DNA of 64,000 nt, from the NCBI GenBank assembly GCA_026874595.1, contig CM049308.1, positions 36,450,027 to 36,514,026 of the forward strand. The letters run 5' to 3'. Both the position numbers and the translations under genes were made by a program. How positions within the stretch are numbered: the first letter of the stretch is position 1; each line of letters begins with the position of its first letter. The notes beneath the pieces were generated by a model, which worked only from the letters and a program-made list of their open reading frames with translations, did no database searches and was not told the DNA's origin. Origin of the DNA: Sipunculus nudus. Its lineage: Eukaryota > Annelida > Sipuncula > Golfingiida > Sipunculidae. Shown here one piece after another: positions 13,402-44,900 of this stretch.

Positions 13402-14194
13402 TTTAAAGCGTACTTGTGCTTGAAGGACAGGAACTCAATCAAGATTTCTGTCAGGTAGGAAACTCATTGCGGGGTCCCCAGAGACTGACCGGCCAGTACT
13501 ATGCATTTCAGGGCTGACGCACCAGTGAGTTGTAATGCTGCTTCTGTGTGAATGTGTTTCAGTGCATGAGAAGCAGGGTTGTGTCACTACTTGTGAGCAT
13601 GCATGCAGCACTCCAGATGGTGTAAGCTGGTCTGTTCATTGTGCTAATAGACACCTGTCTATGCCTCACCAACTGATGTTACAGACACTGGGGCAGGATG
13701 TTATTACATGACTTTTGACTTATATTCCATACACTCACTCATTCGGTTTATGTCTATCTGTACTTTGATTTCTGGTCTTTGTGAAACATGCAGAGCCGGA
13801 GCACCATCTGCAGAACATGTATATTGGGAAAATATAGACCCTCCCCTGTCATGTAAGTTTCAGTGATATTTAGTGAATTATAAGGAAAAGTAGGTTAATA
13901 TGTGCAGAAAATAATAAGAAAGTGATCACAGACAAGTCAGTATAATTGGGACGGTTTGATCTGTGGTCCCCTTTTGAATGTATGGGGCATTTAACAATTA
14001 ATAGAATCTACAAAAAAATAAAGGGCATGTTTGTAATGAACAATTAACTTTTCAAAAATGCATTTGATCGTTGTTTTGCTGTGCAAACAGCATAACGGCA
14101 TTATCATTATATCTACTAGTCATTTCATTATTGCTTGCCGGAAATCTTCGATTTCGGCAAGCATGTTCGTCAGTTGCGTATGTCTGTTTGTCTT

Positions 14195-14250
14195 TTTGTT
14201 TGTTTGTTTGTTTGTTTGTTTGTTTGTTTGTTTGTTTGTTTGTTTGTTTG
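14195..14250. repeat. (TTTG)n microsatellite
   Basis: About 14 TTTG units inside the Helentron-like element, just after its 5' hairpin. A two-unit trace recurs at 15918 before the second module. Confidence 0.9.
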
Positions 14251-14639
14251 TCACGACTCTCCAGGTCACACTTTTGCATCAATCAACTTGAAAATTACAG
14301 GCTTGATTGACAAACCGATTTCTAGGTGCCCTATTGTTTTGGGTCAACATTGCTCCAAGGTCAAGGGTCAAGGTCACGACAGGTATGGTTAACGGTTTTT
14401 GCACTATAACTTCGCCATAAATAGGCTTATCCACTTCTGCAATAGCTCATTTTTTTCGTCATCACCTGGCCTTTCTTTTGACATGTAGCTTACTCAAATT
14501 TGCCGTTACCATGGTTACATTTTTTGGGCAAAAATCATGGAAATTGGAAATAACACGACTATTTTTTGTAACTTTGTCAGTTTTTAAGCTAGGCAGATCT
14601 AGTTTTCGGCATTTTGTTCCACATGACCAGCTTGACACG

Positions 14640-15916
14640 ACAGAACTGGAAGTCAGGCCAAATCTCGCACCATATCTCGTCAAACGAGAAAAAACGAGAC
14701 TTCGCGGAAATGCTTATAACTCGGCGACTTTTACAGCTAGACAGGTCTGGTTTTCGGCATTTTGTTCCACCAAACAAGCTTGACACGACAGAGCTGCAAG
14801 ACAGGCCAAATCTCGCACCGTATCTCGTCAAACGAGAAAACACGGGATTTCACGGAAATGCTTATAACTGGGCCAGTTTTACAGCTAGGCACGTCTGGTT
14901 TTCGGCATTTAGTTCCACTAGACCAGCTTGACACGACAGATATGCAAGTGCCGTAACCATGGTTACATTTTTTGGGCAAAAATCATGGAAATTGGAAATA
15001 ACACGACCATTTTTTGTAACTTTGTCAGTTTTTAAGGTAGGCAGATCTAGTTTTCGGCATTTTGTTCCACATGACCAGCTTGACACTACAGAACTGAAAG
15101 TCACGCCAAATCTCGCGCCATATCTCGTCAAACGAGAAAAAACGAGACTTCCCGGAAATGCTTATAACTCGGCGACTTTTACAGCTAGACAGGTCTGGTT
15201 TTCGGCATTTCGTTCCACCGAACAAGCTTGACACGACAGAGCTGCAAGACAGGCCAAATCTCGCACCGTATCTCGTCAAACGAGAAAACACGGGATTTCA
15301 CGGAAATGCTTATAACTGGGCAAGTTTTACAGCTAGACACGTCTGGTTTTCGGCATTTAGTTCCACTAGACCAGCTTGACACGACAGATATGAAGTCTAG
15401 CAAAATCTCGCACCGTATCTCGTCAAACGAGAAAACACGGGATTTCACGGAAATGCTTATAACTGGGCCAGTTTTACAGCTAGACAGGTCTGGTTTCCGC
15501 CATTTCCTTCCACATGACCAGCTTGATACGATAGATGTGCAAGTCAGGCCAAATCTCGCACCGCATCTCGTCAAACGAGAAAACACGAGATTTCACGGAA
15601 ATGCTTTTAACTCGGCGAGTTTTACAGCTAGACAGGTCTGGTTTTCGGCATTTTGTTCCACTAGACCAGCTTGACACGACAGACATGCATGTCAGGCAAA
15701 ATCTCGCACCGTATCCCGTCAAACGAGAAAACACGAGATTTCACGGAACTGCAGCTAGACAGGTCTAGTTTTCGGCATTTAGTTCCACATGACCGGCTTG
15801 ACATGACAGAACTCCAAGTCAGGCACAATCTCGCACCGTATCTCGTCAAACGAGAAAACACGAGATTTCACCAAAATGCTTTTAACTCGGCGATTTTTAC
15901 AGGTACGAAGGTCTAG
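14640..15916 (+). repeat. ~150-bp satellite array, module 1
   Basis: Monomers each contain TCTCGTCAAACGAGA (6-bp stem, 3-base loop) followed by gatttcacggaaatgcttataactcggcgacttttacagctagacaggtctggttttcggcatt-type sequence. Hairpins recur near 14676, 14825, 15125, 15274, 15420, 15569 and 15840; the copy near 15714 is changed (TCCCGT). 14950-15010 repeats part of the leader. Confidence 0.8.
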
Positions 15917-16799
15917 TTTGTTTGTTTGTCACGACTCTCCAGGCCACACTTTTGCATCAATCAACTTGAAACTTACAGGCTTGATTGACAAACCGATTTA
16001 TTAAGTGCCCTATTGGTTTTGGTCAGCATCGCTCCAAATTCAAGGGTCAAGGTCACGACAGGTATGGTTAACGGTTTTTGCACTATAACTTCGCCATAAA
16101 TAGGCTTATCCACTTCTGCAATAGCTCATTTTTTTTCGTCATCACTTGGCCTTTCTTTTGACATGTAGCTTACTTAAATTTGCCGTTACCATGGTTACAT
16201 TTTTTGGGCAAAAATCATGGAAATTGGAAAAAACACGACCATTTTTTGTTACTTTGTCAATTTTTAAGCTACAGACGTCTGGTTTTGGTCATTATGTACC
16301 TTATAGGCAGCTTGACATGATAAAACTGAAAGTCTCGCCAAATCTCGCACCATTTCTCGTCAAACGAGAGTCTTCGAGATTTCATTAAATATGACCTACA
16401 GGTTGCATTTTTTTAACAATGGCTTTGAAATTGATATATTTTGTGTTATGTATAAATATCTCGAAATCTGTTTTTCATTTTTTGGAAATAGCCACCAGGG
16501 GGCGTGGTACCTAAAACACTGTAACATATCATTTTTCTGCAATATCTAAAATAATTTTAAACATGGCACAATTTTTATCGTTGTATCTTAAACTAGGAAC
16601 ATTGGCTTATTCCTCCGCACATGTAGCTTTGTGCTGCCGTTACCATTGTTACCAAATTTGTGGGTTTAACTTGACGATCTGAAAATATGCAGTTTTTGGC
16701 TTCTATCTCGGTTAATATTTATGTTTCAAGGGTCTAGTTTTTTGCATAAGGCTGCTTCCCCTTGGTTCTAAGTCATTCAATTGCAAGTCTCGTCAAATT

Positions 16800-17860
16800 T
16801 CGCTCAGTTTATCGTCAAACGAGAAAAAAACGAGATTTCACTGAAATGCTTATAACTCGGCGACTTTTACAGCTACACAGGTCTAGTTTTCGGCATTTCA
16901 TAACATATGACCAGCTTGACACGCCAGAAAAGAAAGGCCAAATCTCGCACCATTTCTCGTCAAACGAGAAAACACGAGATATCATGGAAATGCTTATAAC
17001 TCGGCGACTTTTACAGCTACACAGGTCTAGTTTTTGGCATTTGGTAACATTTGGCCAACTTGACATAGTAAAACAGCGATACTTGGCGAAATCTCGCACT
17101 ATATCTGGTCAAATGTGGAAAAATGAGATTTCACAGAAATGCATATAAGTCGGCGACTTTCACGGCTAGACAGGTCTAGTTTTTGGCATTCATTAACATT
17201 TGGACGGCTTGACATGAAAAACCTGCAAGACTGGCCAAATCTCGCACCATATCTCGTCAAACGATAAAAAAGGAGATTTAACAGAAATGCTAATAACTCG
17301 GCGACTTTTACAGCTAGACAGATGTAGTTTTCGCCATTTCATAACATTAAGAGAGTTTGATATGACAAATCTACAAGACTGGCCAAATCCTGCACCATAT
17401 CTCGTCAAACGAGAAAACACGAGAGTACACGGAAATGCTTATAACTCGGCGACTTTTACAGCTAGACGGATCTAGTTTTCGCCATTTCGTAACGTTTAGC
17501 CGTCTTGAAATAATAAAACTGCTCGTCTTGCCAAATCTCGTACTATATCTCGTCAAGCGAGAAAAAAACATGATTTCACGTAAATGCTGATAACACGGTG
17601 ACTTTTGCAGCTAGACAGGTCTAGTTTTCGGTATTTTGTAATATTTGACAAACCTGACATGACAAAACTGGAAATCTCGCCAAAGCTCGCACCATTTCCC
17701 GTCAAACGAGAAAACACGACATTTCATGCAAATGCTTATAACTCAGCGGCTTTTATAGCTAGACAGGTCTGGTTTTCGGCATTTCATATCATTTGGCCAG
17801 CTTGACATGACAAACCTGAAAACGTCTCACTGCTTCTTGTCAAACGAGATTAACGGAATT
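16800..17860 (+). repeat. ~150-bp satellite array, module 2
   Basis: The same monomer, more diverged, with hairpin sites near 16810, 16958, 17107 (decayed), 17249, 17400, 17549, 17699 and 17835. Spacing stays close to 149 bp. Confidence 0.75.
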
Positions 17861-18155
17861 TCATGAAAAAATTTTGAACTTGGTCCCTTTTACACTAGAA
17901 AGATATGCAGCTGTTAAAGGTCAGCATGCATAAATAAACATATTATCCGTTTCTGCTGCCCCCCCCCCCCCATGTTGCTCATTCATATAACTGTTTCTAC
18001 ATGCTTTCTCTGTCTATCTGTCTGTATCATTTCCATTTCCGGCAAGCGCGTGACCTCTGGTCATCTTGTTTTGGAATTTCTTTGTCAGAAAATGATTTTA
18101 TCAGGAAAATCACGACAGAAATTAAAGAGACTCTTGTTAAGTAAACATTAAATAT

Positions 18156-18158
<3 letters not shown>

Positions 18159-18193
<35 letters not shown>
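18159..18193. repeat. (AT)n microsatellite
   Basis: About 17 AT units. Confidence 0.9.
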
Positions 18194-18196
<3 letters not shown>

Positions 18197-18833: not shown

Positions 18834-18999
18834 GTGGTGTATAACACGATAATACAGCCTCATATAGACTATGCTATAAGTGTAAGGGGGAACAGACTAA
18901 CAAAGCTGGATAAGGGGAGGATACAAAAATGTTAAACCGGGCAGCCCGTATCATTACTGGATGTTTTAATTTTAATTATCTAAGTGCAAAATACAAACT
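18834..18999 (+). pseudogene. Non-LTR retrotransposon RT thumb fragment
   Basis: VVYNTIIQPHIDYAISV, then NRLTKLDKGRIQK, a frame shift, and MLNRAARIITGCFNFNYL. The DYA(I/V) and RAARIITG blocks are typical of CR1/L2/Jockey-like RT thumbs. It runs into a (TA)n microsatellite. Confidence 0.7.
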
Positions 19000-19001
19000 T
19001 G

Positions 19002-19004
<3 letters not shown>

Positions 19005-19081: not shown

Positions 19082-19082
<1 letters not shown>

Positions 19083-19860: not shown

Positions 19861-19869
19861 AGGTATTTT

Positions 19870-20722: not shown

Positions 20723-20834
20723 ATGGCTGAGAAGCTGGCCTTCCTAGCATTTCTTGTTCCAGTGTTTATAGCGTACGTGATTCTTGATTACAGAGAAGAA
20801 TTCATCCAGCTTATCAGGAAACACTCAGATTCAG
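20723..20834 (+). CDS. B3GALNT2: B3GALNT2 exon 1, signal anchor
   Basis: Encodes MAEKLAFLAFLVPVFIAYVI then a charged stretch. This is a short cytoplasmic tail plus one membrane span, as expected for a type II glycosyltransferase. Donor GTAATC; leaves phase 1. A transposon pair begins only ~90 bp into the intron. Confidence 0.75.
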
Positions 20835-21860: not shown

Positions 21861-21905
<45 letters not shown>

Positions 21906-23908: not shown

Positions 23909-23956
<48 letters not shown>

Positions 23957-26900
23957 TGTGTCCGTGTGTGTGTGTGGCTAGAGATACTTTTAAAAATTAC
24001 ACAGGTCAGTATATGCATGGGGCCCCTTTAAAAAGATACCAGTCTGGAGGGGTCTCATAAGCTCGGGAGAACATATATTTACGTGACACCAGCCACCCTG
24101 GCCTGGAGTTACTCCCGGCTTTTACCCATTTTGCAAAGATCATTTAAAAATAACTCTGTGTTTAAAGAACGAATTAGCGAAATATGTTTAGGACTAATAC
24201 TTGGGTATACGTGCTTTAATTATTGTATAACAAATTGAGCATGTGTGATACGGTCCACTTGTTAATCCTTAGTCCCGGCTTTTTCCGGGACCCGGGTACT
24301 CCCGGCTCCCACCCGGGAGTCCCAGCTTTTACTACCAGTTTGACAGATCCCGTCCCCAAGAAAACCCAATCTAACCTCTTAAGACAAAGTAAACATAGGG
24401 GTTATATTATCACTGTCAGTACATACACGAAACCTTGACCCCAGATCGTCTGAAAGTAAGTTTAATAATATTTACTAATAATAGACTATTAATTGTGCAT
24501 TGTGCTGCTTACCAGTTACTGTGCTGTCCTTGGCTGACCCTGTGACCCCAGATGACCCGAGACATTAGGGGCCTGTCTAAAACAACGGAGAATCCATCGA
24601 GAGCTAGAGAATCTGCAGAGAATTCATGGAGAATTTTAATTATTTGCAGAGTTTTCATATGCAATGATACTTTTATTGCTAAATGTGTTGCATTTTAATA
24701 ATGTAAAAAAAAAAACCTAAAAATTTGCACACAGAGAATGCAGACCTTGGCCAAGGCAGCTCATTACTCCCATATGGCATTGTCAGATATACAGCATTTT
24801 CCTAAAAAAAATTCCTGGATACAGATGGCGATCTGGATCACACCAAAAATTGAAGCAGTTGTTCCTTATATCATTTCCAAAGTAACCTGAAAATGTCTTC
24901 AAAATCTGAACAAACTTTCAATCCGATACCTGCAAAAACATAAACTCATTTGGCGAAGGAAATAATGCACTTATGCCACATTCATTCTTTGGACAAGAGG
25001 GAACAAGAAGCTTTATTAGCCAAGACTCACGAGGAGGTGTTTTCAGATTTTCATTCACATTTTGGAGGGTATTTAATGGCATGTATGGAATGGGGTTACA
25101 TTTATTTTTTTTTTACAATTTCACATAAATAGAAAAAGTAGGTGTTAGAGGACTACCAGAATATAAAATATAGGGTGCAAATTACATTTTTTTTCTTGAC
25201 AATTCAATCTTTGTGAAAAACAGTTTGAAACATCAAATTAGACCTTTTTTATAATTATCTGAAGAGAAATATGATTCATAAAGGGTTATCTTTATATAAC
25301 ACGGTCTGATGGAGTCTGTTTGGGTTTGATGGGGCCTGATTGGGTCATTAGTCTGACTCTAAGAGTCTAGACTGTTGTCAGAATTCTTTTACATCTTCTA
25401 TTGAGGACTGCACTGTAAGGCTCAATGAGGATGCAGATATTTTTGTAATTTTTAGCTCAGTTGACGGAAAGTCATCTGAGCTATAGCAATCACTCTTTAT
25501 ATGCCATTCATCTGTCTGTCTGTCAGTTAACCAGGCACAAATTGTAACCACTGGACTTGGAATCTTGTTACTTGACATCCAGGGAGGTCCATGAAAAATC
25601 TCCTTGGAAACCTCAGATAAGGTCTCTGTTACCCATATCCTTTGAGCAATCGGGCTCTGAAGTACCCCCAGAATAATGAAAAAAATGATACAAAAGCTCA
25701 AGTATCTGAACAACTATTGCATTAAACACCATGATTCTTTGCATGGATATTGATCATGGAATGTTTCATCAGTTTCTGCAGTCTGGTGGCACCACATGTA
25801 TTTTTTTTATTTTTATGAATTTTATTCTCTATTTTTGAGACCTGTTCAGATGTGGTTATTTGTTAACAGGGCACAAATTGTAACCATTAGACCTAAAATC
25901 TTCTAACTTGACATCCAGACAGGTCCATAAAAAATCTCCTTGGAAACCTGAAATAAGGTCTTTATTAGCCATATCCTCCGAACTATTGGGCTCATAAATT
26001 CCTCCTGAATAATTAAAAATTTGATACAAAAGCTCCAGTATCTGAACAACTATTACATTGACCCCTAGATTCTTGGCATGCATATTCATCATGGAGTGTG
26101 TTATCAATTCCTGCAGACTGGTGGCACCACCTGGATTTTTTCAAATTTTTACACATTTTTAACTGTATTTTTGAGTGGAAAAGAAGCATTTGAATGAAAA
26201 CACATATCATGATGATGGCCCAGATTACCTCCAGAATTTAATGGATGGTCCCTCGGTTGTCACCCTGAGACTCCTGAAAATTTCTTAAAATCTGTCATTA
26301 CTTTTTTGTTAAAGTTGCTAACAGACAAGTGAACCAACAAACCAAATTAAATGCATAATACCAGTGACTCCCCAACAGGCAGCGGTATAATAAAATTATT
26401 GAAACAGAGGCCACTGTAAATATGATGTGTCACTGATTCAGGTCCAAAATATGAGTTGCTGGTTGGAGTGCTGTCAGCCAGAGAGCATTTTCAGGAAAGA
26501 CAAACCATCCGAGACACCTGGATGAAAGCTGCCAAATCAGAAGATAACCTGGGAAGGTCAGCAAAACCAAACATATACTCACAAACACAAACACAGATAT
26601 ACATATAATCTATAACCTGCTAGTTCTTGCCCAGATACGCCTAGTGATTTATATGTCAATAAGATAACTAAAAAAAGCAATCACACATGTATGCAAATGT
26701 ACACTGTTTGTTGCGGACGGAATAAGATCTGAATTTCTGCTCACCGGGCATTTTACTCTCAAAGTTAAGTCTAGAATAGTGAGTGAGACCATTTGCTTTT
26801 AGACACAAAATTAGGTCGAAGGCAGGTCTGGAGATGGGTATTCACCCACCTTGAAATGTTAGGTTTTTTGTTGAAGAATAGAACACCCTTATAAAATGAG

Positions 26901-29900
26901 GCCTTTATTAAGTAAGGTAACTGCTGTGGATTCTGACTCCAGTAAGTGACAGAAAATGAAACAGAGATGTATTAGGGTTTTGGCAAACTGATATGTTTAA
27001 TAGGCTTTTATGTCAGACCAATGTTTATGCACACATGTCCCTGCCAAATTATAAATGAAAAGTAGCGTTACTCTCGATCAAATATAATAATTGAGTTCTG
27101 CCAATTATTTATTATGTCACTCTTCAAAGGCAAAATAGTGATTTGCCACTCTGATAGCTTTGCTATCTGACATTAATACATCATATATACACTCACTGTC
27201 ACAATATTTAATCAAAATTCTTTTTTTTTCATATTTTAAGAGATGTATTAAAGGAGTGGAAGCAATTATGTTAACATAACTTTACAAAATATTTGCTTCA
27301 TGTAGTACATGGCCTGTTTACAGTTAAATTTACTTTTGAGTATTCACAGACAAAAAGTAAAAATCCATCTATTATTTCTGTGTATACTGTAGATATTATT
27401 GACATTTTCTTTCAGGGTCAAAGTATTATTTGTTTTGGGAAATCGAGCATGCCCTGTTCCTCGTGATGACAGAGAAAATGAATTTTCCTGTAACAGGTGG
27501 AATTTCTCACTTCCAGGTGAGGGAGTTGTTGGTATCACTAAAAGGATTGAAGTATCCATAAAAATTATTTGTAAAAATTTCCCTTACAAAATGCTACCAG
27601 GTAGATGATTGACATAGATCCACTCAAAATGCTGACACCAAATTCATAATCTCAAAAATAGCTTTTACCACCATAGTCCATTCTACTACCCTTGTATTTT
27701 TTATTTATTATAAATTCCTAGGATTAGAATTATCAGTTAATGTATTACTATTCACCAGGGCAATATGCATATTATATTGTAAACATGATTGCAGTCATGA
27801 TTTGTTAAAGTGTGTTACTTATCAATTTAATCATTTATTTAGGATTTTTGCTCAGCTGACTATATGTCATCTGAGCTATAGTAGTGGTCCTTTGTCTGTT
27901 GTCCGCCTATCCGTCCATCTGTTAACAGGGCACGTTTTAAAACGGTTGGACCAATGAATCCAAAATTTTGCATACAGTTAGATGTTCCCAAAAACTCCTA
28001 CCATACCGAAAATTGGGTCACTAGGACTTTGTTCCTTTGAAATATTAAGGAATACCTCCATTTTCCATAAAAAAGCTATTGTTACACTTCAAGGCTGCCT
28101 TATATCAAAACCACTGATCTGTTTTTGATCATATTAAATATTTATATTCTCCCATAAATTTTCTATGAACATACCAAAAATTTGGTCAGTATTGTGTATT
28201 GTTTTGAAGTTATGGGCCCAAATATAATGCAATTTTTTAAAAATCAGATAATATATTTACTCACTAAACAGGAGAATTGCTGAAGCTGGAGACTTTTTTT
28301 CAGGGATATAACTTAATTTTATCATGATTCAGTTGTTTACCCAAAACTAGATCTGAATTTTGCAAATTTTCTTGCAAAGTTATCAGCATAAATAAAAAAA
28401 TCAATACCTTAATTTTTTTCCAAATTTGGCTACCTCACATTTTTTCCCTATAAGAAATGTTAATTTAATTTTCACAGCATATATACATAGGTATTTAATC
28501 TTTTGAAATCTGAAATTTCAAAGCAATTGATTGAAAAGAGAAGCTTTTATTCAAGTTTTCATACACTATGTCAAGTGTTGTTTACGGCAAGCCACCCTAG
28601 TAGTGTAGCCTTCACTTATGTTATGTAACCCACTGGAGGCAGCTTGCCTTGGCTCAGCTTGGCCACTACCAGCAGGCTTCCCCTCTGACCTGCACTCCCC
28701 CAGCTGGTGCATAAACTTGATGAATGTTAAAATTTTCTGTATTTGATTCATTCTTATTCTAGGCTATGCTACATTTTAGATTTTGTATTGTACCACCAGG
28801 GTTACAATAATTAAAGTGCACACTTAATTGTGTCCACAAAGTGGTGTATTGTTATGAAAGTGTGGATGTTCATCAGATAAGTAATTCCTTACTTCAGAAG
28901 AGTAAAAACTTCACCAGGTGTGAAATTGACTATTGATTCCAGTAATAAATTATACCTGAGATAGTAATTAGCACAATGATATTGTTTGTCTCTCATTTAG
29001 CCAACAGTGTGTATACTTTATTTGAAAAGATGTTTTTATTTTATCAAATTTACTGGATCTTTTATTTTGGTGAACAAAATTAAGCATGTGCTGAAAACTC
29101 CAATGTACAAAACTTTTTAATAGTGATTCAATAAATAATCTTGAAGATGCCTACGCTCCCTAGGCAGTGGAAATCTTACGCTTCTAAAGAAACAACTGAT
29201 TTTCACGCTGCAAGCTTTGACCTTTTATGATATAATTAGACATCAGATGGCGTTTCATTGTCCGCTGAAAAAAAATGTGCGTATGATGTGACAAGCAGCC
29301 AACCAGATGGCAATAAACAAACGCTCGACAGGCATCCTGGCTCTGCCCATAGCTGCGCTTCAAGCGCCGTTTGAAGACAGTTAATGTTTGAATTTTAATT
29401 GCTCCCTCTCCATTCTCGCATCATCAACCGATTCAATTCTGACAGTATGACTGTGTTAGTGTTGCCATGTATGTGTTGTCTGCAGAACTGAAACCAGCCA
29501 GTGAGGTGTGCACGCAGCCTTTGTTGTTACGTTTCGTTTGAATTTACAGCTCACCGGCCGGGCATCTTGTGTCCAAGGCCTTAAGCAAACCACGTCTGCG
29601 GCAATTCTCTCTGAGACTGTGGCCTGTTCAGACGGTTACCGGGGGGATGAGCTGTCACTCAAAACGAAATGAACATGATTGGCTCCGTGTATTCCTTGCT
29701 TGGCTGTGTCTTCCAGCACAAGGTCTCACCTGATTGGACAAAAATACAGTGCTCCCCTCTGGTGTAGCAATTCAGGATACGAGGTCATAACAAACAGCGC
29801 TTACCATATAGGTAGTAGGCCTATAGTTAAAGCGCTGTGTAAAGAGCGTAGAAGATGCCATGTTGTGGCATTATTTTCTTTTATATTTAGTTGAAACATT

Positions 29901-32900
29901 TGTGATTAAAAGTAATTAAATATGTGTATGCCTGATATAGGCTACACTCTGGATAAATAATAATTGCAACTTAGAATTCTGATATTTTAACTTATATTTT
30001 CATATTTTTTTATTACAAGTTTATAAAACTTGTAAATAAAAAAAAATTTATCTGATAAAAACTATTAATGGAAAAAGTGGATATGCTAAAAAATAGGGTT
30101 TAATATAAACTTAAATGCATTATTCCCTTGAAAGTGAAATAAAGGTAGTCCGTTCTGTCCACTTGCCTGTCCATCTGTAAATTTTCATATGCATTACAGT
30201 ATCTCAAAACTTTCTGTTTTTCTTCATGACAGTCTTGTCAGAGTATTACTATTAGTTTTGCAATTATATATTTAAAACTTTACTATAACCAAGTAGTAGG
30301 GCCCTTTTCCTCTTAACTTCTCATATGCTTATATATATATGAAAAACATTACAATAAAATATTTTGCATATTTTGTATTTGCAAAAATTTCAAACTTCAG
30401 CTGAGCGCCGTGACCCATGGGTCCCTTGTTCTGATTTTGTTATTGTAATATGTACTTCTATCAAACAGTTACCTCAGGTCTGTTGTTTTCCTGACCTTAT
30501 TTTAAGTGACACCTCCTAACTGAAAAAGATAAAAAAAAAATAGAAAATGTATACCAGAATATCTGTTTCATGATTATTGTGTCATTTAGCAGTATAATGT
30601 GAACAAGTCTCTTTGCTTTTCATCAGATAAAGTTGAAGAAGTTGAGCTATTCACAGAGACAGAAAGAGCAGGCATCAACTTTGAAAAGAAAAACTATGGC
30701 TTGCAGTCAAAATCATTCATGGTAATATTATATTTCATATTTTGATTAATAATATTATGTACTTTTAATTTATATTTTATTTTTGATTTGCTAAAATTGC
30801 TAAAAACAATATTTGACAAGTGTGAAATTTCCCCATAGATACATATTTGGTCTGTTATGATATTATATCAGTACGTTGGTGTTGGATAATATTCACAGAA
30901 TAATTACAGGTGGCATTTATTAATTTGTTCTCAGGTTCAACATCCAGTCATACTGAGTCAGCTTGGCCTCCATGCAGACAGTTTAGGAAGCAGGGTACAA
31001 GTCAAGTTGCTAGCTGCATACAGACAGGTATCAAAACAGTATTAAATTATGAAAATATATATCTTACTTAATGGTTTCAGCTCAGCTGACTATAAGTCAT
31101 CTGATCTATAGTTATGGTCCATTATCCATCCTCTGTCTGTCTGTCTGTTAGACAGGCATGTTTTGAAACCATTGGACCTACAAATCCAGAATTTGGCACA
31201 CTGTTAGATGTCCCCAAAATCTCATACCAAACAGAAAACTGGGTCACTATGCATTGTTTCCTTCTAGAAATTAAGGAAAAACCTCAATATTCCATTTAAC
31301 ACCAATTATCACCAATATTTTCCATGAACACTATTCTATATATTTTCTATGTCCATGCCATAAATTAGGTCATTATTATGCAATTTCTTAAAGTTATGGG
31401 CCAAAACATATTATAAACATTTAAGCTTCAGTTTTTTACCCCCAAGGATAGAACTTTATTGTATCCGCCAAAACATAGTTTTGCAGATACTATGTTTTTG
31501 ACCGGGTTTTTCCCTTCGCCGTATTCATTTCCGGAGAACTCCTCTGAGACTACTGGACTAATTTTTTTGAAACTTACACCAATTATCGGGTCACATGTGA
31601 ACTGGTACCTAACCAATTTGTGTTGACCTCTGACCTTTTCTCTCAGCCCAGTGTCCATTTGTGCATCTGTTTCCACACATAAACCCATATATCTCGAAAC
31701 CATTTGACCGATCAGGAAAAAATTTTGTACAAATGTAGCCTTTTGATAGCTTTATAACATACACAAAAAATGGTGGCGCCACCTGCAACCATGTTTGCAC
31801 AGTGTTCATCTGTTCATCTGCCTTGGGTTAAAATCACTTATATCTCTGCACTGGTTTGACTAATTTACCTGAATTCGGCATGCATATACATCCTGGATAG
31901 CTTTCTTGATTTTATGACAGGTGGCACCACCTACATTCATGTTCCTGCTGTAGACATCCATGCTAATATCTTCGGACTGGTTTGACATATCTTCCTGAAA
32001 ATTTGCATGTGTATAGATCTCACATAGCTCTTTATTGTACTCAATACTGGTGGCACCACCTGCAATCATTTTTGCACAGCGTCCCTCTGTTTGTCTGCCG
32101 TGGGACAAAATCACTCCTATCTCTGCAGTGGTTTGACATATCTGCCCAAAATTTTTTCAGGTTTATACATCTAAAACAGCTTTCTTGATTTTATGACAGG
32201 TGGCGCCACCTACATTCTAGTTCACCCTGCAGACATCCAAGCTCATATCTCGGGAACTGTTTGACTGATTGGGCCAAAATTTTGCATGTGTATAGATCTC
32301 ACATAGCTCTTAATCATACACAAAATAGGTGGCACCACCCGCCATCATTTTTGCACAAGTCCTTCTGTTTGTCTGCTGTGGGATAAAATCTCTTATACAT
32401 GTAGTGGTTTGACTTATCTGCCTAAAATTTTGCATATGTATACAACTTGGACAGCTTTCTGGATTTTGTGGTTGCTGGCACAACATACATACACATTTAG
32501 GCTGCAGACATCCATGCTAATATGCAACAAACCTCACTCTATTTCCCCTTGCCACTTTATACATGCTTCACTTCACCCTTTTCACTCTGATTTTGGCGGA
32601 TACACATAGTCACTTGTCGACTACCTGTATTTTAGTTTAATCAAAATTCAACTGTATACCTGAATTTAGATCAGAATCTTGTACATTCAAGTTATTAGGA
32701 CAAATATAAAGTCAGTACCTTGAATTTGACCCAAATTTGACTATTGCATGTTTTTTCCGTGTAAGTACGTTTGATTTAATTTTCACAGCATGTACACATA
32801 AGGAATTAATCTGTTAAATTCTTAAATTTGAAAATAAAAGCTAAAACATTTGGCTGGTTACCATGGTTATATGGTATTCACTTGCATTTTCAAGCTCCAG

Positions 32901-35900
32901 GCAACCCATTCTGATCAATGTAGGTTGTTTAATAAAGTTTTGCCTGCTTATACCAGATTTGTAATGCATCACTGGCAGAGCTGAGGTGTAGTAACTTCCA
33001 CCATTCTCCCATCCCCCACCCCCCATTGAATCCTTGCACCTGTGCACTGGAGAAATTAGTTTAATTGCAACTGTATAAAAATTGATTAAAATAAAGAAAA
33101 TCAGTATAATAAAAAAATTTAAGATCTGATTGAGATCATATAATATTTTAGAATGGGAGATAAAGTGATCAGCTTTGTTTGTCTACCTGTATCTTTTTTA
33201 AATATTCAGTGATTGTGAAACAAACTTTTTTCCCTGTAAGCACTGTTGAATTAAATTTCATAACCCTAATTATATGTACAAACATTTAATAACTCCCATC
33301 GTTCCTCTACATCCCCCCCAACCACCACCACTACCAAGTCTTTGCAACTGTGGACAGGGAATGTTAGTTATATTGCAACTGTATACATTTAAAAACAATC
33401 AGGTATAATAAAAAATAGGATCTAATTGATTAAGTGTCAACATGCTGAACTGTCAACAGCTTATCAAAGAGCCAAGCAATGATCATGGTAATAGTATACC
33501 GGTAGACCTTATGTTTTCAAACTGCTCACATGCTTCGGTTTCAGCATTAGAAAACACATGTTCAGATCAGAAAATATTATTTGCAACAATTTCTTACTCA
33601 TCAATACAAACTAGTCATATCAATGAACCATGGCCTATATTATCTCTTCCTCTTAGACTTGATCTCCATTTGATGTTATTTAGATTTTTACCTTCAATTA
33701 ACTTCAGCTGAGCACCATGACCCATGGGTCCCTTGCTTTTTCTTTTAGGATAACCTTTTGTATATTGCATTGTCAAATCATGAATCTGAATAATATCAGT
33801 TTGGGATGTAGATCAGGATAACATAAATTCCGTTCCACCAACCTGTGTCCGCCTGTTTTTTTGGAGATAATATTCAATATTTTTCAGTAATCTCCAAAAA
33901 ATTGGCATTGGGAAGAGTTGGCCTAATGTAGATATTAAGAAATTTACAATAAATCTCCAGTTTATGTTTTACAACTTTATGGATTCTTCACAATGATCTG
34001 ACAGATCAGACATGTCCCTGCATGAGTAGCCATATTTATTTCAAGTTGTTATATATTTTAGAGTGTTTCCATGACATGGTCCATTCAGCAGCTGTCAACT
34101 GAGGATGTTTTTGCATGTGACAATTGACCTTGACTATTGTAAGTGGGACTGTATGTTGTAAAATGTAAACTGGTTTTTCCTATTTTTAAATAATTTTGTT
34201 TCTTAAAAAAAGTGTTAGGTAGAAATTTATTCACCTTTTTTAAATTTAGGTCCTTGAATCTTCTACCCTACATTACCAATTTCCCCTTTAAATGTTAATA
34301 ATAATTTTCATAGCAAAAAACAGGTGGATATGAGAGGATGAAGCAGATGTTAGTCCTTGCCATGTGCTAGAAAAATCTAAATTCCAGAAGGCAGAAGAAG
34401 TAACATGTACTTCTTATCACAGTAACCTTTATATTCATTTGAGAGACAGTGCCATAAAACAGATATTAGACAAACTGTATAAAAATAATAAAAATATAAA
34501 TGATTGGGTTGGAGATGCTGTGTTTTGCAATTCATACAGTCTTCTTTTTGTCAAAGGTGTTATTTAAAAGGCTAATAGTGAATAAATTAGCTGATCAGAT
34601 CAAAGGAATTATACAATTTCAGTGAGATTAAATCCTGGATCAAGGGGAAAGTGCATCTTGAAAACCATTGAAAATCTTTGAATCATATAACAATGTTTTT
34701 CCATGGCTTGAAAATCATGGAACTGGGTGTTTCGCCAATAAAATCTGTGAAAACCATTGAATTTTTTGTTTTATTGTAAAGAACATTTTCCTAATTTTTA
34801 CAGCACACTCTTATTGGTCATCAGTGAAAGTAAGTACATCCTCTGGTTGGCCAATGGCTGTCAGACAGCCATCAATACCTGTCCCCTTCTGTTTATCTTC
34901 CCATATAAAAAACTCAGTGTGGCACTGCACAAAACCATTATGATTTGTCGAAATTTCATATCCCTGTGAAAATTTTGGAAAACCTCACCCTGAAAATATC
35001 TTTGAAACCTTGGAATTTTATCCTGAAAACTGTGCAGAAACCCTGTAGATTAAACAGTTGACCCATGGTTCTTTATGCTAAACATATGATCTGTGAACAA
35101 GGTTTCTGGATGTTAGAAAAATTGGTAATTAGCAGTAATTCTAGTACACCCTATTTCAAATGATGTTAATGGTTCAGACATATGAGCTCTCTGTATAAAA
35201 TGGATATACATGTTTTGCACTGAAATATTTCTGCTGGACAAGTCAGCGATCTCTTGATATGTGCATTTATAAATTGTGCTCTATATAATGCCAAGTATGA
35301 TCTACTGTCCATTGTTTGTTGCAAAATCAGATGAAAAATAAAGTATTTTTATGACATTACTCCTATTTTTAGCATTTAACTCACCCTGCCAATTGTTTGG
35401 ACAGTGTTTAATAAATTTGTTAGCAACTGAAAGAATTATATTTATTTGAGGTTATATATCATGTTTTGTTCCCAAGAATTACAAGTAACAGCAATAAATA
35501 AGTCATAAATGTGGACTTGCTATATGGACTTGAAATAAAGGTACATTTTTTAGTTCACTCTTGGAGTGTGCAGCATCCACTGTCTGTTACCAAATATCTC
35601 AACAGCCACTGCAGATATGTTCTTGAAACTTTGCAGACTTTTTTATCATGCAAAAAAAAGTGCCATCTATGTTGACCTACTTTCTGCAAGCTGAAATGAT
35701 TTTTCCTGCTTTTTCCAGTAAAAGTCATAAAGTATTAACATTTTGGCTTCCATTTCATGGTCAGCAGTCCCTTAGAGGAAGGGAAATAACATGAGTATAA
35801 ATTCAGTCAAATTATTTTAAAAATAGGGTCTTTACGGAAGTTCAAATTTTGTTTGACCCCAAAATTTGACTTTTTTTTTGTTTGTTTGCAGAAATAATGT

Positions 35901-38900
35901 CATGTGTGTTACCAAATATTTCAGGAACTGCTGCAGCCTTCAGCACCAAATTTCACAGGAATATTAATTATGTGATCACTATTTGATTTTCATCTGCAGG
36001 CGGCACCACCTGTGTTGACCTACTTTCTGCAGGCTGTATTGGTCTTTTCTGCCTTTTCCAAGATTTGTCATAAAGTATAGATGTTTTGGCATTCATATCA
36101 AAGTAAACAATTCTGTTTAGATATGGAAATAAAATGAGTATAAATTCAGTCTACTTATATTCAAGATGGCATGTTTACAGAACTTCAAATTTTGTCTTCT
36201 AATAAATCTGTGTCCCGTTCATCCTTTTCTGTCACATTTTAAGTTCGACCCCTTTGTTAACTTGTGCAATGCAGCTGGGAAATGCATAAATGATATTTTA
36301 ACATTCAGTTTTATATCTTAATCACCCACCATCATGCACAGTAATTCACACAGTGAACATTAGAACCCTGGGGCTTGTTTTCAATTTTCAAGATCTCATA
36401 AATTAGACAATTTGAGTCAAACATTCAAACATTTGCTAAGCAAATACCCAAATAAAGTTGCTCTGATGCACAAGAAAATATCTTTACACAGTTTACAGCA
36501 AGCCATAACTTAGCTTGATGATCCTGGATAGCTCTTTATGCTCAGCAAGACTTGGCTTGATGACCCTGGATAGCTCTTTATGCTCAGCAAGACTTGGCTT
36601 GATGACCCTGGATAGCTCTTTATGCTCAGCAAGACATGGCTTTAAGACCCTGGATAGCTCTTTATGCTCAGCAAGACTTGGCTTGCTGATCCTGGATAGC
36701 TCTTTATCCTCAACAAGAATTGGCTTGATGACCCTCGATAGCTCTTTATGCTCAGCAAGACTTAGCTTTAAGACCCTGGATAGCTCTTTATGCTTGGCAA
36801 GACTTGGCTTGATGATCCTGGAAAGCTCTTTATGCTCAGCAAGACTTGGCTTGATGATCCTGGATAGCTCTTTATGCTCAGCAAGACTTTGCTTTAAGAC
36901 CCTGGATAGCTCTTTATTCTCGGCAAGACTTGGCTTGATGATCCTGGATAGCTCTTTATGCTCAACATAACTTGACTTGATGATCCTGGATAGCTCTTTA
37001 TGCTCAGCAAGACTTGGCTTTAAGACCCTGGATAGCTCTTTATGCTCAGCAAGACTTGACTTGATGATCCTGGATAGCTCTTTATTCTCAGCAAGACTTG
37101 GCTTTAAGACCCTGGATAGCTCTTTATGCTCAGCAAGACTTGGCTTGCTGATCCTGGATAGCTCTTTATCCTCAACAAGAATTGGCTTGATGACCCTCGA
37201 TAGCTCTTTATGCTCAGCAAGACTTAGCTTTAAGACCCTGGATAGCTCTTTATGCTTGGCAAGACTTGGCTTGATGATCCTGGAAAGCTCTTTATGCTCA
37301 GCAAGACTTGGCTTGATGATCCTGGATAGCTCTTTATGCTCGGCAAGACTTGGCTTTAAGACCCTGGATAGCTCTTTATTCTCGGCAAGACTTGGCTTGA
37401 TGATCCTGGATAGGTCTTTATGCTCAGCAAGACTTGGCTTGCTGATCCTGGAAAGCTCTCTATGCTCAGCAAGACTTGGCTTGATGATCCTCGATAGCTC
37501 TTTATGCTCATCAAGACTTGGCTTGCTGATCCTGGATAGCTCTTTATGCTCGGCAAGACTTGGCTTGATGATCCTGGATAGGTCTTTATGCTCAGCAAGA
37601 CTTGGCTTAATGATCCTGGATAGCTCTTTATGCTCAGAAAGACTTGGCTTAATGATCCTGGATAGCTCTTTATGCTCAGCAAGACTTAGCTTAATGATCC
37701 TGGATAGCTCTTTATGCTCAGCAAGACTTGGCTTGATGATCCTGGATAGGTCTTTATGCTAAGCAAGACTGGGCTTAATGATCCTGGATAGCTCTTTATG
37801 CTCAGCAAGACTTGGCTTGATGATCCTGGATAGGTCTTTATGCTCAGCAAGACTTGGCTTAATGATCCTGGATAGGTCTTTATGCTCAGCAAGCAAGTCT
37901 TGCTGATCCTGGATAGCTCTTTATGCTCAACAAGACTTGACTTAATGATCCTGGATAACTCTTTATGCTCAGCAAGACTTGGCCTAATGATCCTGGATAG
38001 CTCTTTATGCTTAGCAAGACTTGGCTTAATGATCCTGGATAGGTCTTTATGCTTAGCAAGACTTGGCCTAATGATCCTGGATAACTCTTTATGCTTAGCA
38101 AGACTTGGCTTGATGATCCTGGATAGCTCTTTATGCTCAGCAAGACTTGGCTTAATGATCCTGGATAGCTCTTTATGCTCAACAAGACTTGGCTTAATGA
38201 TCCTGGATAGCTCTTTATGCTCAGCAAGACTTGGCTTGATGATCCTGGATAGGTCTTTATGCTCAGCAAGACTTGGCTTAATGATCCTGGATAGCTCTTT
38301 ATGCTCAACAAGACTTGGCTTAATGATCCTGGATAGCTCTTTATGCTCAGCAAGACTTGGCTTGATGATCCTGGATAGGTCTTTATGCTCAGCAAGACTT
38401 GGCTTAATGATCCTTGATAGCTCTTTATGCTCAGCAAGACTTGGCTTGATGATCCTGGATAGGTCTTTATGCTCAGCAAGACTTGGCTTAATGATCCTGG
38501 ATAGGTCTTTATGCTCAGCAAGACTTGGCTTGCTGATCCTGGATAGCTCTTAATGCTCAACAAGACTTGACTTGATGATCCTGGATAGCTCTTTATGCTC
38601 AACAAGACTTGACTTGATGATCCTGGATAGGTCTTTATGCTCAGCAAGACTTGGCTTAATGATCCTGGATAGGTCTTTATGCTCAGCAAGACTTGGCTTA
38701 ATGATCCTGGATAGCTCTTTATGCTCAGCAAGACTTGGCTTAATGATCCTGGATAGCTCTTTATGCTCAGCAAGACTTGGCTTAATGATCCTGGATAGCT
38801 CTTTATGCTCAGCAAGACTTGGCTTGATGATCGTGGATAGGTCTTTATGCTAAGCAAGACTGGGCTTAATGATCCTGGATAGCTCTTTATGCTCAGCAAG

Positions 38901-41900
38901 ACTTGGCTTGATGATCCTGGATAGCTCTTTATGCTCAGCAAGACTTGGCTTAATGATCCTGGATAGGTCTTTATGCTCAGCAAGCAAGTCTTGCTGATCC
39001 TGGATAGCTCTTTATGCTCAACAAGACTTGACTTAATGATCCTGGATAACTCTTTATGCTCAGCAAGACTTGGCTTAATGATCCTGGATAGCTCTTTATG
39101 CTTAGCAAGACTTGGCTTAATGATCCTGGATAGGTCTTTATGCTCAGCAAGACTTGGCTTAATGATCCTGGATAGCTCTTTATGCTCAACAAGACTTGGC
39201 TTAATGATCCTGGATAGCTCTTTATGCTCAGCAAGACTTGGCTTGATGATCCTGGATAGGTCTTTATGCTCAGCAAGACTTTGCTTAATGATCCTTGATA
39301 GCTCTTTATGCTCAGCAAGACTTGGCTTGATGATCCTGGATAGGTCTTTATGCTCAGCAAGACTTGGCTTAATGATCCTGGATAGGTCTTTATGCTCAGC
39401 AAGACTTGGCTTGCTGATCCTGAATAGCTCTTAATGCTCAACAAGACTTGACTTGATGATCCTGGATAGCTCTTTATGCTCAACAAGACTTGACTTGATG
39501 ATCCTGGATAGGTCTTTATGCTCAGCAAGACTTGGCTTAATGATCCTGGATAGGTCTTTATGCTCAGCAAGACTTGGCTTGATGATCCTGGATAGGTCTT
39601 TATGCTCAGCAAGACTTGGCTTAATGATCCTGGATAGGTCTTTATGCTCAGCAAGACTTGGCTTGCTGATCCTGAATAGCTCTTAATGCTCAACAAGACT
39701 TGACTTGATGATCCTGGATAGCTCTTTATGCTCAACAAGACTTGACTTGATGATCCTGGATAGGTCTTTATGCTCAGCAAGACTTGGCTTAATGATCCTG
39801 GATAGGTCTTTATGCTCAGCAAGACTTGGCTTGATGATCCTGGAAAGCTCTTTATGCTCAGCAAGACTTAACTTAATGATCCTGGATAGCTCTTTATACT
39901 CAGCAAGACTTGGCTTGATGATTCTGGATAGCTCTTTATGCTCTGCAAGGCTATTGGTGCAAATTACAATTTATTCATTTTGATTCATTTCTTTAATGTA
40001 TTTTTAGCTCAGCTGACTATAAGTCATCTGAGCTATAGTCGTGGTCCATTGTCAGTTTGTCCGTCCGTCTATCCTTTGGTGTGGCACATTTTGAAACCGT
40101 AAGACCTAGGAATCCAAAATTCAGCATAATGTTAGATGTCCCCAAGATCTCCTTCCAAGCTGAAAACTGGGTCTTTGCGACTTCGTTCCTTTGAGAAATT
40201 AAGGAAAAACCTCAATTTTTTATTAAAAACCTATTTTCACACTTCAGGACTGCCTAATATCAAAACCACTCATCTGTTTTTCCTCATATTTACCATAAAT
40301 TTTACTCTATATAGTTCCTATGGACATGCCAGAAATTATGTCTGTATTATTCAATTTAAAAAAAGTTATGGGCTCAAACATAATGCATTTTGTAAAAAAT
40401 CAGGAAAGATATTTGTTCACTTAACACAAAACATGTTTTAGCTATGGACTTTTTTTCAAGTAATATAACTTCAATTAATCAAAATAAAATTGTATACCCA
40501 AAATTAGATCAAAATCTTTAAAAATTTTTAAAATATTAACAAAAATTAAAAATTGATACCTTAAATTTTGCCCAACTTTGACCATGGCACATTTTTTTCC
40601 TGTAAGTACTGTGGATTTAATCTTCACAGCATGTTTGTATCAGCATTTTGTCTGTTAACACCAAAAATTTGAAACCAGTTGATCAAAAACCGTAGATTTT
40701 GTTCAAGTTTTCAAGCACCATGTAACTATTGTTTACATCAAGCAAGTGTTATGCAGTTTGCAAGAGCTCAGCTCCCCAGCTTCAGCTCTCAGTTCCTAAA
40801 ATTTGGCATACAATTAGATGTCTTCAAAATCCTCTACCATGCCAAGAATTTAGTCACTAGGACTTAATACCTTCGAAATATTAATGAAAAAATTCATTTT
40901 TCCATTAAAAACCCATTGTTAACTTCAAGACTGCCTAATATCAAAACCACTGATCTGACTTGAATCATATATAATATACATATTTTTTTATACATTCTCT
41001 ATGCACATGCCAGAAATGATGTCAGTATTGCGTAATTGTTTTAAGTTATGGGCCCAAACATAATGCACTTTGTAAAAAATCAAGAAATATATTTACTCCC
41101 TTAACAAGAGGATTGCTGAAGCTAGAGATTTTTTGTCAGGGATGTAACATTATTTTATCAAGATTCAATCGAATACCCAAAATTAGTTCTCAGTTTTTCA
41201 AATTTTATAAGTTATTAGTATAAATATAAAATTAGTACCTTAAATTTTGCCCAACTTTGACCATGGCACTTTGTTTCCTGTGAGCACTGTTGATATAATT
41301 TTCATATTATGCACACATAAGGATTTCAGCTTTTTAGTTTAGAAAGCTGAAAGAAATTGGCCAAAAATTGTAGCTTTTATTAATGTTTTTATGAGACCAT
41401 GTCAGTCTTGAGTCACCTGTATGGTGACCTTGTTGACCTTTCACCAAATTATGCACGCTTGAGGCGAGGCATACACTGGGGCAGCCAGGCAGCTTATGGC
41501 CAGCCACAGTTGATCCAAGTGTCCAACCCTCTAGTAGTTTTAACCAACAACATAACAATACACAATAAATTAATAAATTTTTATTGGTTATAATAACAAA
41601 TTAAAGAAAAATAGAAAAGGAATTTGTTAGTTGATAATAACAGGAAATTAACTTGCAGTTACTGATGATATAAGAATCTTGTATCGATGGATAGAATGTT
41701 ACGTATTCCAAATAACACCATGCAGTCACCTATGGTATTATTCAGTTCAATTTTAATGATAAAAAAATAAATCATATTATTCATTACTAATCATTAGGGA
41801 TCATATGAAGGAAATTAATGATAGACATGATGCAGTTGATAATATTAATCTAGATTCCTACTGTATCTAGTGTGTACATTGATGTGAAATTAGTCCAAAA

Positions 41901-44900
41901 TGAAAATATTACATTTATTTTTTTTTAATATAAATAAAAGCCATAAAACCAGGTACTTATGATCATTATTTAAATGTGTGAATTTTGTATATTCTGGATT
42001 CTCAACATCATTGTATGGTGAAAACTGAATAAATAGCAGACATGGTGCAAATACTTTGCAAATGTATTTGAATAAGAGTATGAATATGTACTCCATTATA
42101 AAAATTATTGCATAAGAATGGGAATTCAGGTAAAAATGAAAGTATATGAATACCAGTGCAAATACTTTCAAAATGTATTCATGAATGCATTCATGAATGA
42201 ATATATTCTTTAATATTATTTTAATAATCATTTAAGTTATATTTTATTTGAAAAAATCATATGATTCTCTTATTATTTTTAATAAAAATTATATTTGGGA
42301 CAATATTTGTAATTATTTTTAATAAATAGTTAAACTCTTATATTATATGTTCTACTTATAAGTTATATGGCCAAGTCAAAATCTGTGTGACAATAGCACT
42401 CCATTTGTTAATAAAATAAATGAAATCAATCCTCTTCCCTGTCTCCAAAGATACTATCAAAATCATACATAAGCTAAACACCAACAACTTATAATACAGC
42501 TTATATTTATCACCACACAAAACCAGCATGTGCCACATTTCTAAATCATATTTTTTTATCATATATAACAGCTGAGCGCTGTGACCCATGGGTCCCTTGT
42601 TTTTACTCTGAAGTTATAGCTGACCAATTGTTAATAAAGCACAAATCATTATGGTTTGGCCCAATAATTTCTTTCTTCATATCTAGTTAGGTCCTTAGAA
42701 ATATTGTTACATACTGAAAATAAGGTCACTATTATATATAATTCTGTGAGTAACGCACATGTTTGGTGTTTTTAGCACTTAGAGAATCATATTTGTGTTA
42801 TTATTCTTGGCTGCAAGACAAAAAATTTGCATCAACTTAAAAAATGAAAGATTGTGCCATCTGCACATATATTATTGTTACCATGCAAAAAATGAAGAAT
42901 ATTGGCCCAGCCAGTTCTTCAGAAATGTTGTAGACACAATTGTGAAATTTTAACATTTTTGACTGTTGCTGTACCATGTATGAAATTCATACTTTAGATC
43001 AAGTATCCCAATAATGATTGCATGGATAATTCTGAAATTCAGCAAGCTTATTGGTCATGTTCAGAACTGTCATCTATTGAAAGATGGTTGTGTAATCTAC
43101 ATTTTCTTAATTTTTACGCCTTTTTCAGACTTTGATATATGGGTGGACATGTTACAATTGTAGTCCTGCAAACAAATTCATTATGTATTTAATGCACAGA
43201 TTGAAAGAACATGCATCATCACACATATGTATCTTTAACCATGAACAATTTCATTTGATAAATTCTTCAAAAGTGCCACAGACACAATTGCAATAATACT
43301 CAAATGACAGCAAAACTAATTTGATAGATTTTCTCACTTTGAGAGATCAGCTGAGTGTCATGACCCATGGATCACTTGTTAAGTCTACATGCCATTGGAA
43401 CATGGACTACATTTGGCATATAATGTACCCTGACGTGAGATCCCTTGAAATTTACGGCTTATAGGAGATGCAGAAGTGTTGTCTGGCTTTGGCAGTGTCG
43501 CCTTCTATAATGCCTTGTCTTGTGACCCCTATGACTGATCTTGAAAAAAATTGCATCAAGCCATTTCTTAGAAATATAACAATTAAAACGCCTAAAAAAA
43601 TATAAAAAGGGGATGCAACAAGCATGGTCAATAGAAAATGGTAGCGGAGATCTGTAGGAAATTTTCAGAATGCTAGATGAAGCAGCTCAAGAGAAATATG
43701 ATATTTTATATGAATTGCATTAAAAAACTGACTAATAGTTTGTCAAGGTTTGTTTCCTTGTCATGGTCATGACCCATATTTGAAGACACTGACCTCCCAC
43801 ATATATATCTAAACAGATGCATAATTTGAAGAAATCTATGAAGTGTTTTTGAAGTTATATATGTACAACAAAAACAGCCAGATATCTGTGGGCATGCCAA
43901 ATTTGAGGCAGATGCCTCCAACCGCTCCTGAAATTTCCAAGGTTTTGTGTGATTTTAACCTAAAATGGATCTTGCAAGGGAGATGAACCATCAAAATGCA
44001 GAAAATCAACTGGTTTGAATATAGTTTACTTCCACAGGATTACAAGCGTAGTGATTTTGGCCAACAGAGAAGCTCTCCTGTACATATCACAATATGTAAA
44101 ACATGTTAGAAGCAACACTTTGGCAAAGAAAGCCCATGTAAACCTGTTACCTAACACAAGCAGTTGAAGCTATTATATGTACATATACATACACAATCAC
44201 ATATAGTGAAAAAAGTAACATTAAACATATAAACACACAGTAAAACATATATATATGTATGGCAGAATGTTTCCTGGGTAGTACTTTTTTTTAATATTTC
44301 CTTACCGATATAAATACATGCATTACTGAATCCTGTGACAGGCAGTATATTTACCAGTGTCAGAGATTTTAGCTTTCATATACAGTGGATCATTTAAAAC
44401 AATTGTGTCAGTTTTATAAATTTAGATACTGATAATATTTTTATCTTCGTTGTCAAGTTGCGGTCTCCGTACCATAGAAATGTTTTCAAACGAGTTTTAT
44501 CAATTCGCTTTGCAGGTTTAATATTTACACAGTCGAAGTTCAATGCTTTCTTTGTCAAATTCATTCTTAATACACTAGTTAAGGTCAGATCTTTGCTAAT
44601 TATTTTTACGGCACTCAAACATATAGTGCTCGGCATTTTCTTCAGCTTCGTTACATGCACAAAGTGGATTTTTTGCCATCTCCATTGTAAATGGTTACAA
44701 ATAAAGTGATTTAGAACCTAACCGTGACCTCATAAGTTTTATTTCATCCATCCTTAATTTGTGTTGAATTATTAAATTGAAACTATTAATTTGATTATAC
44801 TGCATTATAGGCTTCTTTGAATTAAAACATATTGTATATCGTTGTAAGCTGTGGGTATAAACAAGTTTTTACATTGTGCTTCTTTAAACATGGGGATATG

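Follow-up and report, generated by a model that had tools for sequence, protein, structure and literature searches.

Three families of repeats (A, B and E) lie in one stretch of the Sipunculus nudus genome, with like-built ends around mostly unrelated cores, and this raises the question of what kind of element they are and what moves them. The stretch, hereafter the window, is 64,000 nucleotides long (assembly GCA_026874595.1, contig CM049308.1, positions 36,450,027 to 36,514,026, forward strand). A preliminary description of the window likened the ends to those of Helentron/HINE rolling-circle elements and proposed that one Rep/helicase source moves several passengers recognised by structure alone. 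Our analysis indicates that A, B and E are very probably (about 0.92) three non-autonomous Helentron (HINE) families, that is, rolling-circle transposons without genes. This part of the earlier proposal is backed by the ends, the hairpins and empty sites, and for A also by Rep elements that end in the A terminus; the membership of B and E is based on structure and target site. The elements of the window are as follows (window coordinates, strand, description):

105..2781, minus: A336-type element with its 5' end at 2781; the low repeat limit is approximate and the element may run off the window
14133..18068, plus: B element (very probably a HINE), with ATT before and TTTT after; ends parsed
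14133..14162, plus: 5' subterminal repeat of B and its inverse partner, hairpin GCTTGCCGGAAATCTTCGATTTCGGCAAGC
14181..14251, plus: (TTTG)n microsatellite of B, where copies nested elsewhere in the genome appear to have landed
14578..17818, plus: core of B, tandem repeats of ~148 bp (TRF rows within 14578-15919 and 16812-17818)
18035..18068, plus: 3' end of B, with inverse repeat at 18035-18047, hairpin TGACCTCTGGTCA at 18051-18063, and TCTTG
25455..26420, plus: A336 (A-type 5' end and a core of 336-bp repeats); right limit approximate
27850..30428, plus: A copy 1, full length
31080..33735, plus: A copy 2, interrupted by E
31461..32635, plus: E copy 1, lying within A copy 2; its 3' end is corrected to 32635, with hairpin TAGTCACTTGTCGACTA at 32607-32623
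40007..42599, plus: A copy 3, full length
43348..43378, plus: further A-type 3' end, TCATG..GATCACTTG variant, not previously described
56186..57205, plus: E copy 2, part of the 3' hairpin missing (GGCGGATA|TTCTAG)

The window also holds two adjacent foldback-like elements (20941-22604 and 22607-24332), with arms of 185 nt and 384 nt that are 84% and 98% complementary, respectively. A 42-bp tandem repeat at 36508-39949 has 82 copies and is open in more than one frame. At 45085-48745 there are frames that we would tentatively assign to a reverse transcriptase of Penelope type with a GIY-YIG domain. Neither these frames nor five others in the window gave a Pfam match at 0.01.

Ends and abundance of the three families

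All three families are built on one plan, in which a 5' subterminal repeat, paired in a hairpin with its inverse close by, is followed by the core, an inverse repeat, a 3' hairpin, CT(A/T)G and a T. Ends were parsed in 264 kb, made up of the window and 20 stretches of 9.9 kb from contig C1 (stretches are given L numbers throughout); this sample favours B because the C1 stretches were picked for carrying the B motif. Besides these stretches, most of the window and short stretches around Rep genes were read. In the 264 kb the 5' hairpin was matched 51 times for B, 36 times for A (a figure that takes in wrong-strand hairpins) and 3 times for E, and 3' ends were parsed 34, 12 and 2 times, respectively. 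The search patterns for the 3' ends of A and B demanded CT(A/T)G; when A 3' ends were listed without that demand, 12 of 13 still had it. The arms of the 5' hairpin are GCTTGCC..GGCAAGC in B, GCTCAG..CTGAGC in A and GTATC..GATAC in E. In each family the 5' repeat pairs with its inverse within about 30 bases. Ahead of the core there is then a microsatellite in B (TTTG) and in A (GTCC-like); none was noted in E. Such an inverted repeat, complementary to the 5' subterminal inverted repeat (subTIR), is a trait of DINE-1- and Cg_HINE-type elements. The subTIRs of all three families are asymmetric, as in HINEs and Helentrons, with the 3' copy well inside the element; it ends 21 (B), 22 (A) or 32 (E) bp before the 3' end. 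A short 3' palindrome, another trait of this group, was found at all parsed A, B and E ends except a few decayed ones (E being represented by two copies). The 3' hairpins of A and B have GACC..GGTC in common, which, like the 5' hairpins, had been missed by the preliminary description. A T follows 46 of the 48 parsed 3' ends, the exceptions being a B copy in L015 and A copy 2 of the window.

Two of the original statements about sequence need amending. The tail had been said to close with CTTGT in every family; in E these letters form the loop of the hairpin TAGTC-acttgtc-GACTA, and the element ends 18 bp beyond (...TTTTAG|TT), at 32635. This copy has TTAG in place of CT(A/T)G. The second full E copy, in L016, ends ...GTATTCTAG|TT, and both full E ends reach (T/C)TAG|TT. 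The cores had been described as lacking similarity; for A, B and E this holds for the most part, but a short stretch with ACTGGTGGCACCACCTG is common to E and to the core of A336. The latter, first recognised here in the copy at 25455, is an A-ended type with a different core, and no 3' end of its own was seen in that copy before the next A copy.

Base changes in the 3' hairpins include compensated ones in B and A. The outer pair of the B stem is C-G in 11, T-A in 7 and T-G in one of 19 distinct rows, and none of 500 shuffles reached the covariation score. Two of the 34 B 3' ends (L020 and L022), which parse one base off, were kept out of this alignment. For A, with nine rows, two of five pairs have a double change in one row each (7 of 500 shuffles), and the outermost pair is unpaired in five of the nine, a point against the HINE reading.

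That the families are real and very abundant, as first claimed, is clear from counts both in the window and genome-wide (1.43 Gb in 153 contigs). The A motif GCTCAGCTG occurs seven times in the window against 0.30 expected (0 of 100 shuffles reached seven), and the E motif GTATCCGCCAAAA, with at most one mismatch, four times against 0.06. The B motif GCTTGCCGGAAAT is present exactly at 14133 (plus) and 18035 (minus); with two mismatches there are four matches against 1.11 expected, which is not clearly above chance (4 of 100 shuffles reached four). Genome-wide, the B 5' motif was found at 9,480 exact places against nine for the pattern read backwards. Control searches gave zero for each of the 3' ends, which were counted 14,599 times for A (oriented), 4,937 times for E and 933 times for the CTTG type of B.

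A loose structural grammar found 36 sites in the window, compared with 13-29 in 12 shuffles (mean 21.5) and five in the reversed sequence. We dropped it as proof; it does not single out A, B and E because most of its sites are chance AT-rich words. A structure-only scan of the 264 kb that required a 5' hairpin placed B (35 5' and 24 3' ends) and A (13 and 4) at the top, bar two AT words, and E, at one and one, came out no better than chance words. Nothing comparable was found in the reversed 264 kb except AT words.

Rep elements and the source of family A

The genome has at least 143 matches to the Rep profile PF14214, a lower bound with 150 of 195 candidates scored, and none was found in 14 control genomes. 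Stretches at 24 of these loci were read. The locus on C17 has a single frame of 2342 codons that matches Helitron_like_N (2.7e-27), PIF1 (4.2e-23) and, weakly, Exo_endo_phos (2.7e-4; 21.2 bits, below the Pfam cut-off of 24.5). The first part of the frame (L035) has Herpes_teg_N (2.2e-12) near the N-terminus, DUF6570 and internal repeats; a herpes-tegument-like domain is known from Helentrons, molluscs included, according to excerpts of an earlier report (PMC9741609). An A 3' end finishes 1,023 bp past the frame. Rep, helicase and A ends are brought together in this element with an endonuclease match that is weak and sub-cut-off; the ends would also fit Helitron2 without endonuclease, and this is the one partner frame that was scanned for the domain.

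A-type 3' ends were found at eight of the 24 loci (C17, L050, L052, L053, L047, L064, L065 and L057) and another end at two (L051 and L059), and the stretches read at the other 14 contained no A, B or E 3' end. The first group consists of C17, L050, L052 and L053, which are 98.1-98.9% identical over 1,046-1,080 bp; the alignments stop at CACTTG|TT and the flanks differ. All four have the same inner A-type 5' end 9.0-9.9 kb upstream of the Rep match, flanked on both sides by the A336 core (L038, L061, L062 and L063). C17 is the only one in which an outer A-type 5' end was seen as well. A stretch of 726 bp in the 5' region of this Helentron matches the A336 copy at 25455 with 81.7% identity. In the second group the terminus is the more frequent A variant. 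Its members L047 and L065, scanned for Rep and end alone, share 224 bp at 99.1% identity as far as CCCT(T/A)G|T, beyond which they diverge. L064 has the flank of L047 and so is not independent. L057 has two A 3' ends downstream of the frame, one with a compensated stem (TGGCCCATGGGCCA), in one copy only. Two A-type 3' ends in succession were also observed in L053 (45 bp apart) and in the window (0.78 kb apart, at 42599 and 43378).

Taken together, the common 3' termini with exact boundaries and the common 5' end identify the coding partner of family A. A Rep-helicase carrying these termini had been expected, and for A the expectation is borne out by two Rep groups that have the A end as their exact 3' boundary; no coding partner with B or E ends was found among the 24 loci read, out of at least 143. 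Lying downstream of the Rep matches C3:41770464 and C5:20308942, L051 and L059 share 309 bp at 99.0% identity; their terminus, GCGGGGGCATTC-GTGTCGttcCGACAC-ATCTAG|TTT, is a different repeat on the same plan.

These loci bear directly on the proposal that one Rep-helicase source moves A, B and E in trans, reading layout and not sequence. The layout is indeed common to the three, down to CT(A/T)G|T and a T-rich target; A and B also have the GACC..GGTC stem in common, and the absence of a B or E partner among the loci read would fit such a source. However, the A ends keep a conserved sequence and are found on Rep groups of their own, and the group of L051 and L059 bears a repeat of its own on the same plan. 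We therefore regard a single source reading structure alone as unlikely, although B and E may still be moved in trans, given that partners were looked for at 24 of at least 143 Rep loci. The termini seem instead to follow their own Helentron lineages, because the A end bounds two Rep groups and L051 and L059 end in another repeat on the same plan.

Insertion sites and nesting

Five empty-site junctions were obtained, and at each the gain equals the element and two T's, with no longer duplication; for family A this counts the A before GCTCAG as belonging to the element. The comparison covered 67 pairings of 5' and 3' ends (80 in an earlier round), leaving out pairings in the B microsatellite or across unrelated ends, and the five are the clean junctions among the matches listed. 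The joined flanks of an A copy in L012 are 97.9% and 97.1% identical to L013, and those of a B copy in L019 have 94.3% identity. For a B copy in L026 the values are 89.8% to window positions 3049-3174, with a one-base run-length difference, and 82.3% to L019; for the E copy in L016 the value is 84.3% to L011. The fifth site, that of E inside A copy 2, was judged by eye against diverged A copies. The target is T-rich at the five junctions, with no target-site duplication beyond an ambiguous TT, as is characteristic of HINEs and Helentrons. Insertion between T and T without duplication had been predicted. The junctions agree with this in having no longer duplication, but the two T's may be the element's own or a duplicated TT. 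Apart from the 3' end of E, the conserved ends lie where they were first placed.

The two T's gained at each of the five junctions could also come from MITE-like elements that move by cut-and-paste and duplicate a target TT. TT precedes all 39 B 5' ends that have GCTTGCCGGAA. It is not constant at the 3' side of B, however, because TT is found in 26 of the 34 flanks there (TC in five; TA, TG and CA in one each). Moreover, the inverse repeat sits well inward of the 3' end, which makes the ends asymmetric, and Rep elements have the same end as A. Cut-and-paste movement is thus very unlikely. Canonical Helitrons (Helitron1), defined by 5'-TC, 3'-CTRR and insertion between A and T, are less probable still. 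CTAG after a hairpin does terminate 24 of 34 B, 2 of 12 A and one of two E copies, but the CTTG of 10 of 34 B and 10 of 12 A copies falls outside CTRR, the inverted repeats are asymmetric, and the defining 5' end is lacking, the 5' starts being GCTTGCC, GCTCAG and GTATCC. Finally, satellites or segmental duplications mimicking elements, which the tandem arrays of B units on C1 and the nested runs might suggest, can practically be dismissed, as they are contradicted by the empty sites, the precise boundaries with unrelated flanks and the thousands of dispersed copies.

The runs of B have a structure of their own. The sequence that follows the B microsatellite was found after 20 of 34 B 3' ends, and the sequence that precedes it was found before 17 of 39 B 5' ends. 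At C1:300600-330300 (L011-L013, minus strand) there are seven B 5' ends in a row and then ten 3' ends with one 5' end among them, and two A copies lie between the two runs. We read these runs as B inserted into the microsatellite of an earlier B; the alternative is unequal exchange. Head-to-tail B units of ~1.27 kb occur in a neighbouring stretch (L003; L011), with one junction of CTAG-TT-GCTTGCC. Self-insertion that yields several 5' ends has been reported for Fusarium Helitrons, in the excerpts of that report (PMC5148889).

Based on established knowledge of Helentrons, movement of the HINE families would begin with a nick at the element end by the Rep nuclease, after which the helicase would peel off one strand. 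The 3' hairpin and CT(A/T)G would mark the stop, and a single-stranded or circular copy would be joined into a T-rich site. Each terminus family would be served by its own Helentron lineage. Nesting of the families in each other is observed, as with E in A copy 2.

Orientation of families A and E

On C1:0-18 Mb, 71 of 100 E places agree in strand with the A listed closest to them, and none of 99 rotations of the E strands reached this number (mean 49.9, highest 69). Agreement is strongest at close range (9/10 below 5 kb and 16/18 at 5-20 kb, or 25/28 below 20 kb) and fades with distance (18/26 at 20-50 kb, 11/19 at 50-100 kb, 12/19 at 100-300 kb and 5/8 at 0.3-1 Mb). Without the first 1.2 Mb it is 63/92. 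The A places beyond 5.2 Mb on C1 are those of one A variant only. Of the B loci no farther than 25 kb from a listed A or E, three agree in strand and one (two copies) does not, numbers too sparse for a test. In the window, the elements at 25455, 27850, 31080 and 31461 are all on the plus strand and lie, by eye, between or beside plus-strand exon pieces; these pieces (26444-31026) give a weak match to Galactosyl_T, at 20.9 bits against a cut-off of 23.

This agreement was unexpected and is unexplained. It is a lead only, because C1:0-18 Mb alone was covered, segmental copies of A and E together were left in, and there was no control repeat. We tentatively suggest, as a possibility that we hold to be doubtful, that insertion is strand-directed at the scale of genes, the unrelated A and E being co-oriented within tens of kb. 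The target might then be the strand left open during transcription or at the replication fork, whichever Helentron lineage acts.

Over longer distances, 41 consecutive listed A 3' ends are minus at C1:64038-1169103, as are 84 of the first 100 listed A places on C1 (0-5.2 Mb); genome-wide the strands are balanced. Megabase strand domains were not kept as an explanation. The sparser list of one A variant has 37 runs against 49.4 expected (z -2.6), or 37 against 44.2 with near copies collapsed (z -1.6), and agreement at 0.3-1 Mb is 141/235 pairs. By eye, a rare variant over C1-C10 showed no clear chromosome-end effect. An asymmetry of T runs was likewise rejected as the cause of orientation, as none was seen outside elements in 20723-36500 (45 T runs, 47 A runs). 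No report of shared Helitron orientation was recognised among the matches listed by a literature search, which consisted of partial texts. If the shared orientation holds genome-wide, it would be a footprint of strand choice by rolling-circle elements in an animal genome.

Comparison with known elements

The comparisons below draw on excerpts of the cited papers. Similar to Cg_HINE of the Pacific oyster, the families described here have a 5' subTIR with an adjacent complementary inverted repeat, a 4-base microsatellite, central tandem repeats, a 3' subTIR, a 3' palindrome and an oligo-T target without duplication, and there are several families per genome that differ in their repeats (PMC7492417). 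Microsatellites of the GTCY/GTCC types are found both in Cg_HINE and in A (PMC7492417). The 3' tail of CT(A/T)G does not appear in the excerpted passages that describe Cg_HINE (PMC7492417). The authors of that study could relate no autonomous Helentron to the oyster elements, whereas the A-type ends are here tied to Rep elements (PMC7492417).

Other oyster Helitron-like elements have a CTAG 3' end and subTIRs and were called possible intermediates (PMC7992393). In contrast to those elements, which have 5'-TC and an A|T target and for which no autonomous element was detected, the target here is T-rich and A has coding partners (PMC7992393). The oyster papers, in these excerpts, left open or did not find an autonomous element for such HINEs (PMC7492417, PMC7992393). 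The pairing of HINE and enzyme becomes testable here, because Rep elements of this genome bear such ends.

Fusarium Helitron2 elements resemble those described here in their asymmetric terminal inverted repeats, in the terminal hairpins of some groups, and in having several 5' termini with one 3' terminus, which was explained by self-insertion; they differ in being fungal elements without an endonuclease domain and in using other target words (PMC5148889).

DINE-1/HINE elements of Drosophila, Culex and a mite have subTIRs, a 3' palindrome and a T-rich target with a varying number of T's, DINE-1 also has the 5' inverted repeat, and these families have a partner that encodes an endonuclease and has the same ends (PMC4067079). 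The elements of S. nudus differ from them in sequence, in the CT(A/T)G tail and in the two A-type 5' ends of the A-group Helentrons (PMC4067079). The anatomy is therefore known, being that of DINE-1 and Cg_HINE as given in these excerpts (PMC4067079, PMC7492417). What is new in S. nudus is the members themselves, the corrected end of E and the tie of family A to Rep elements.
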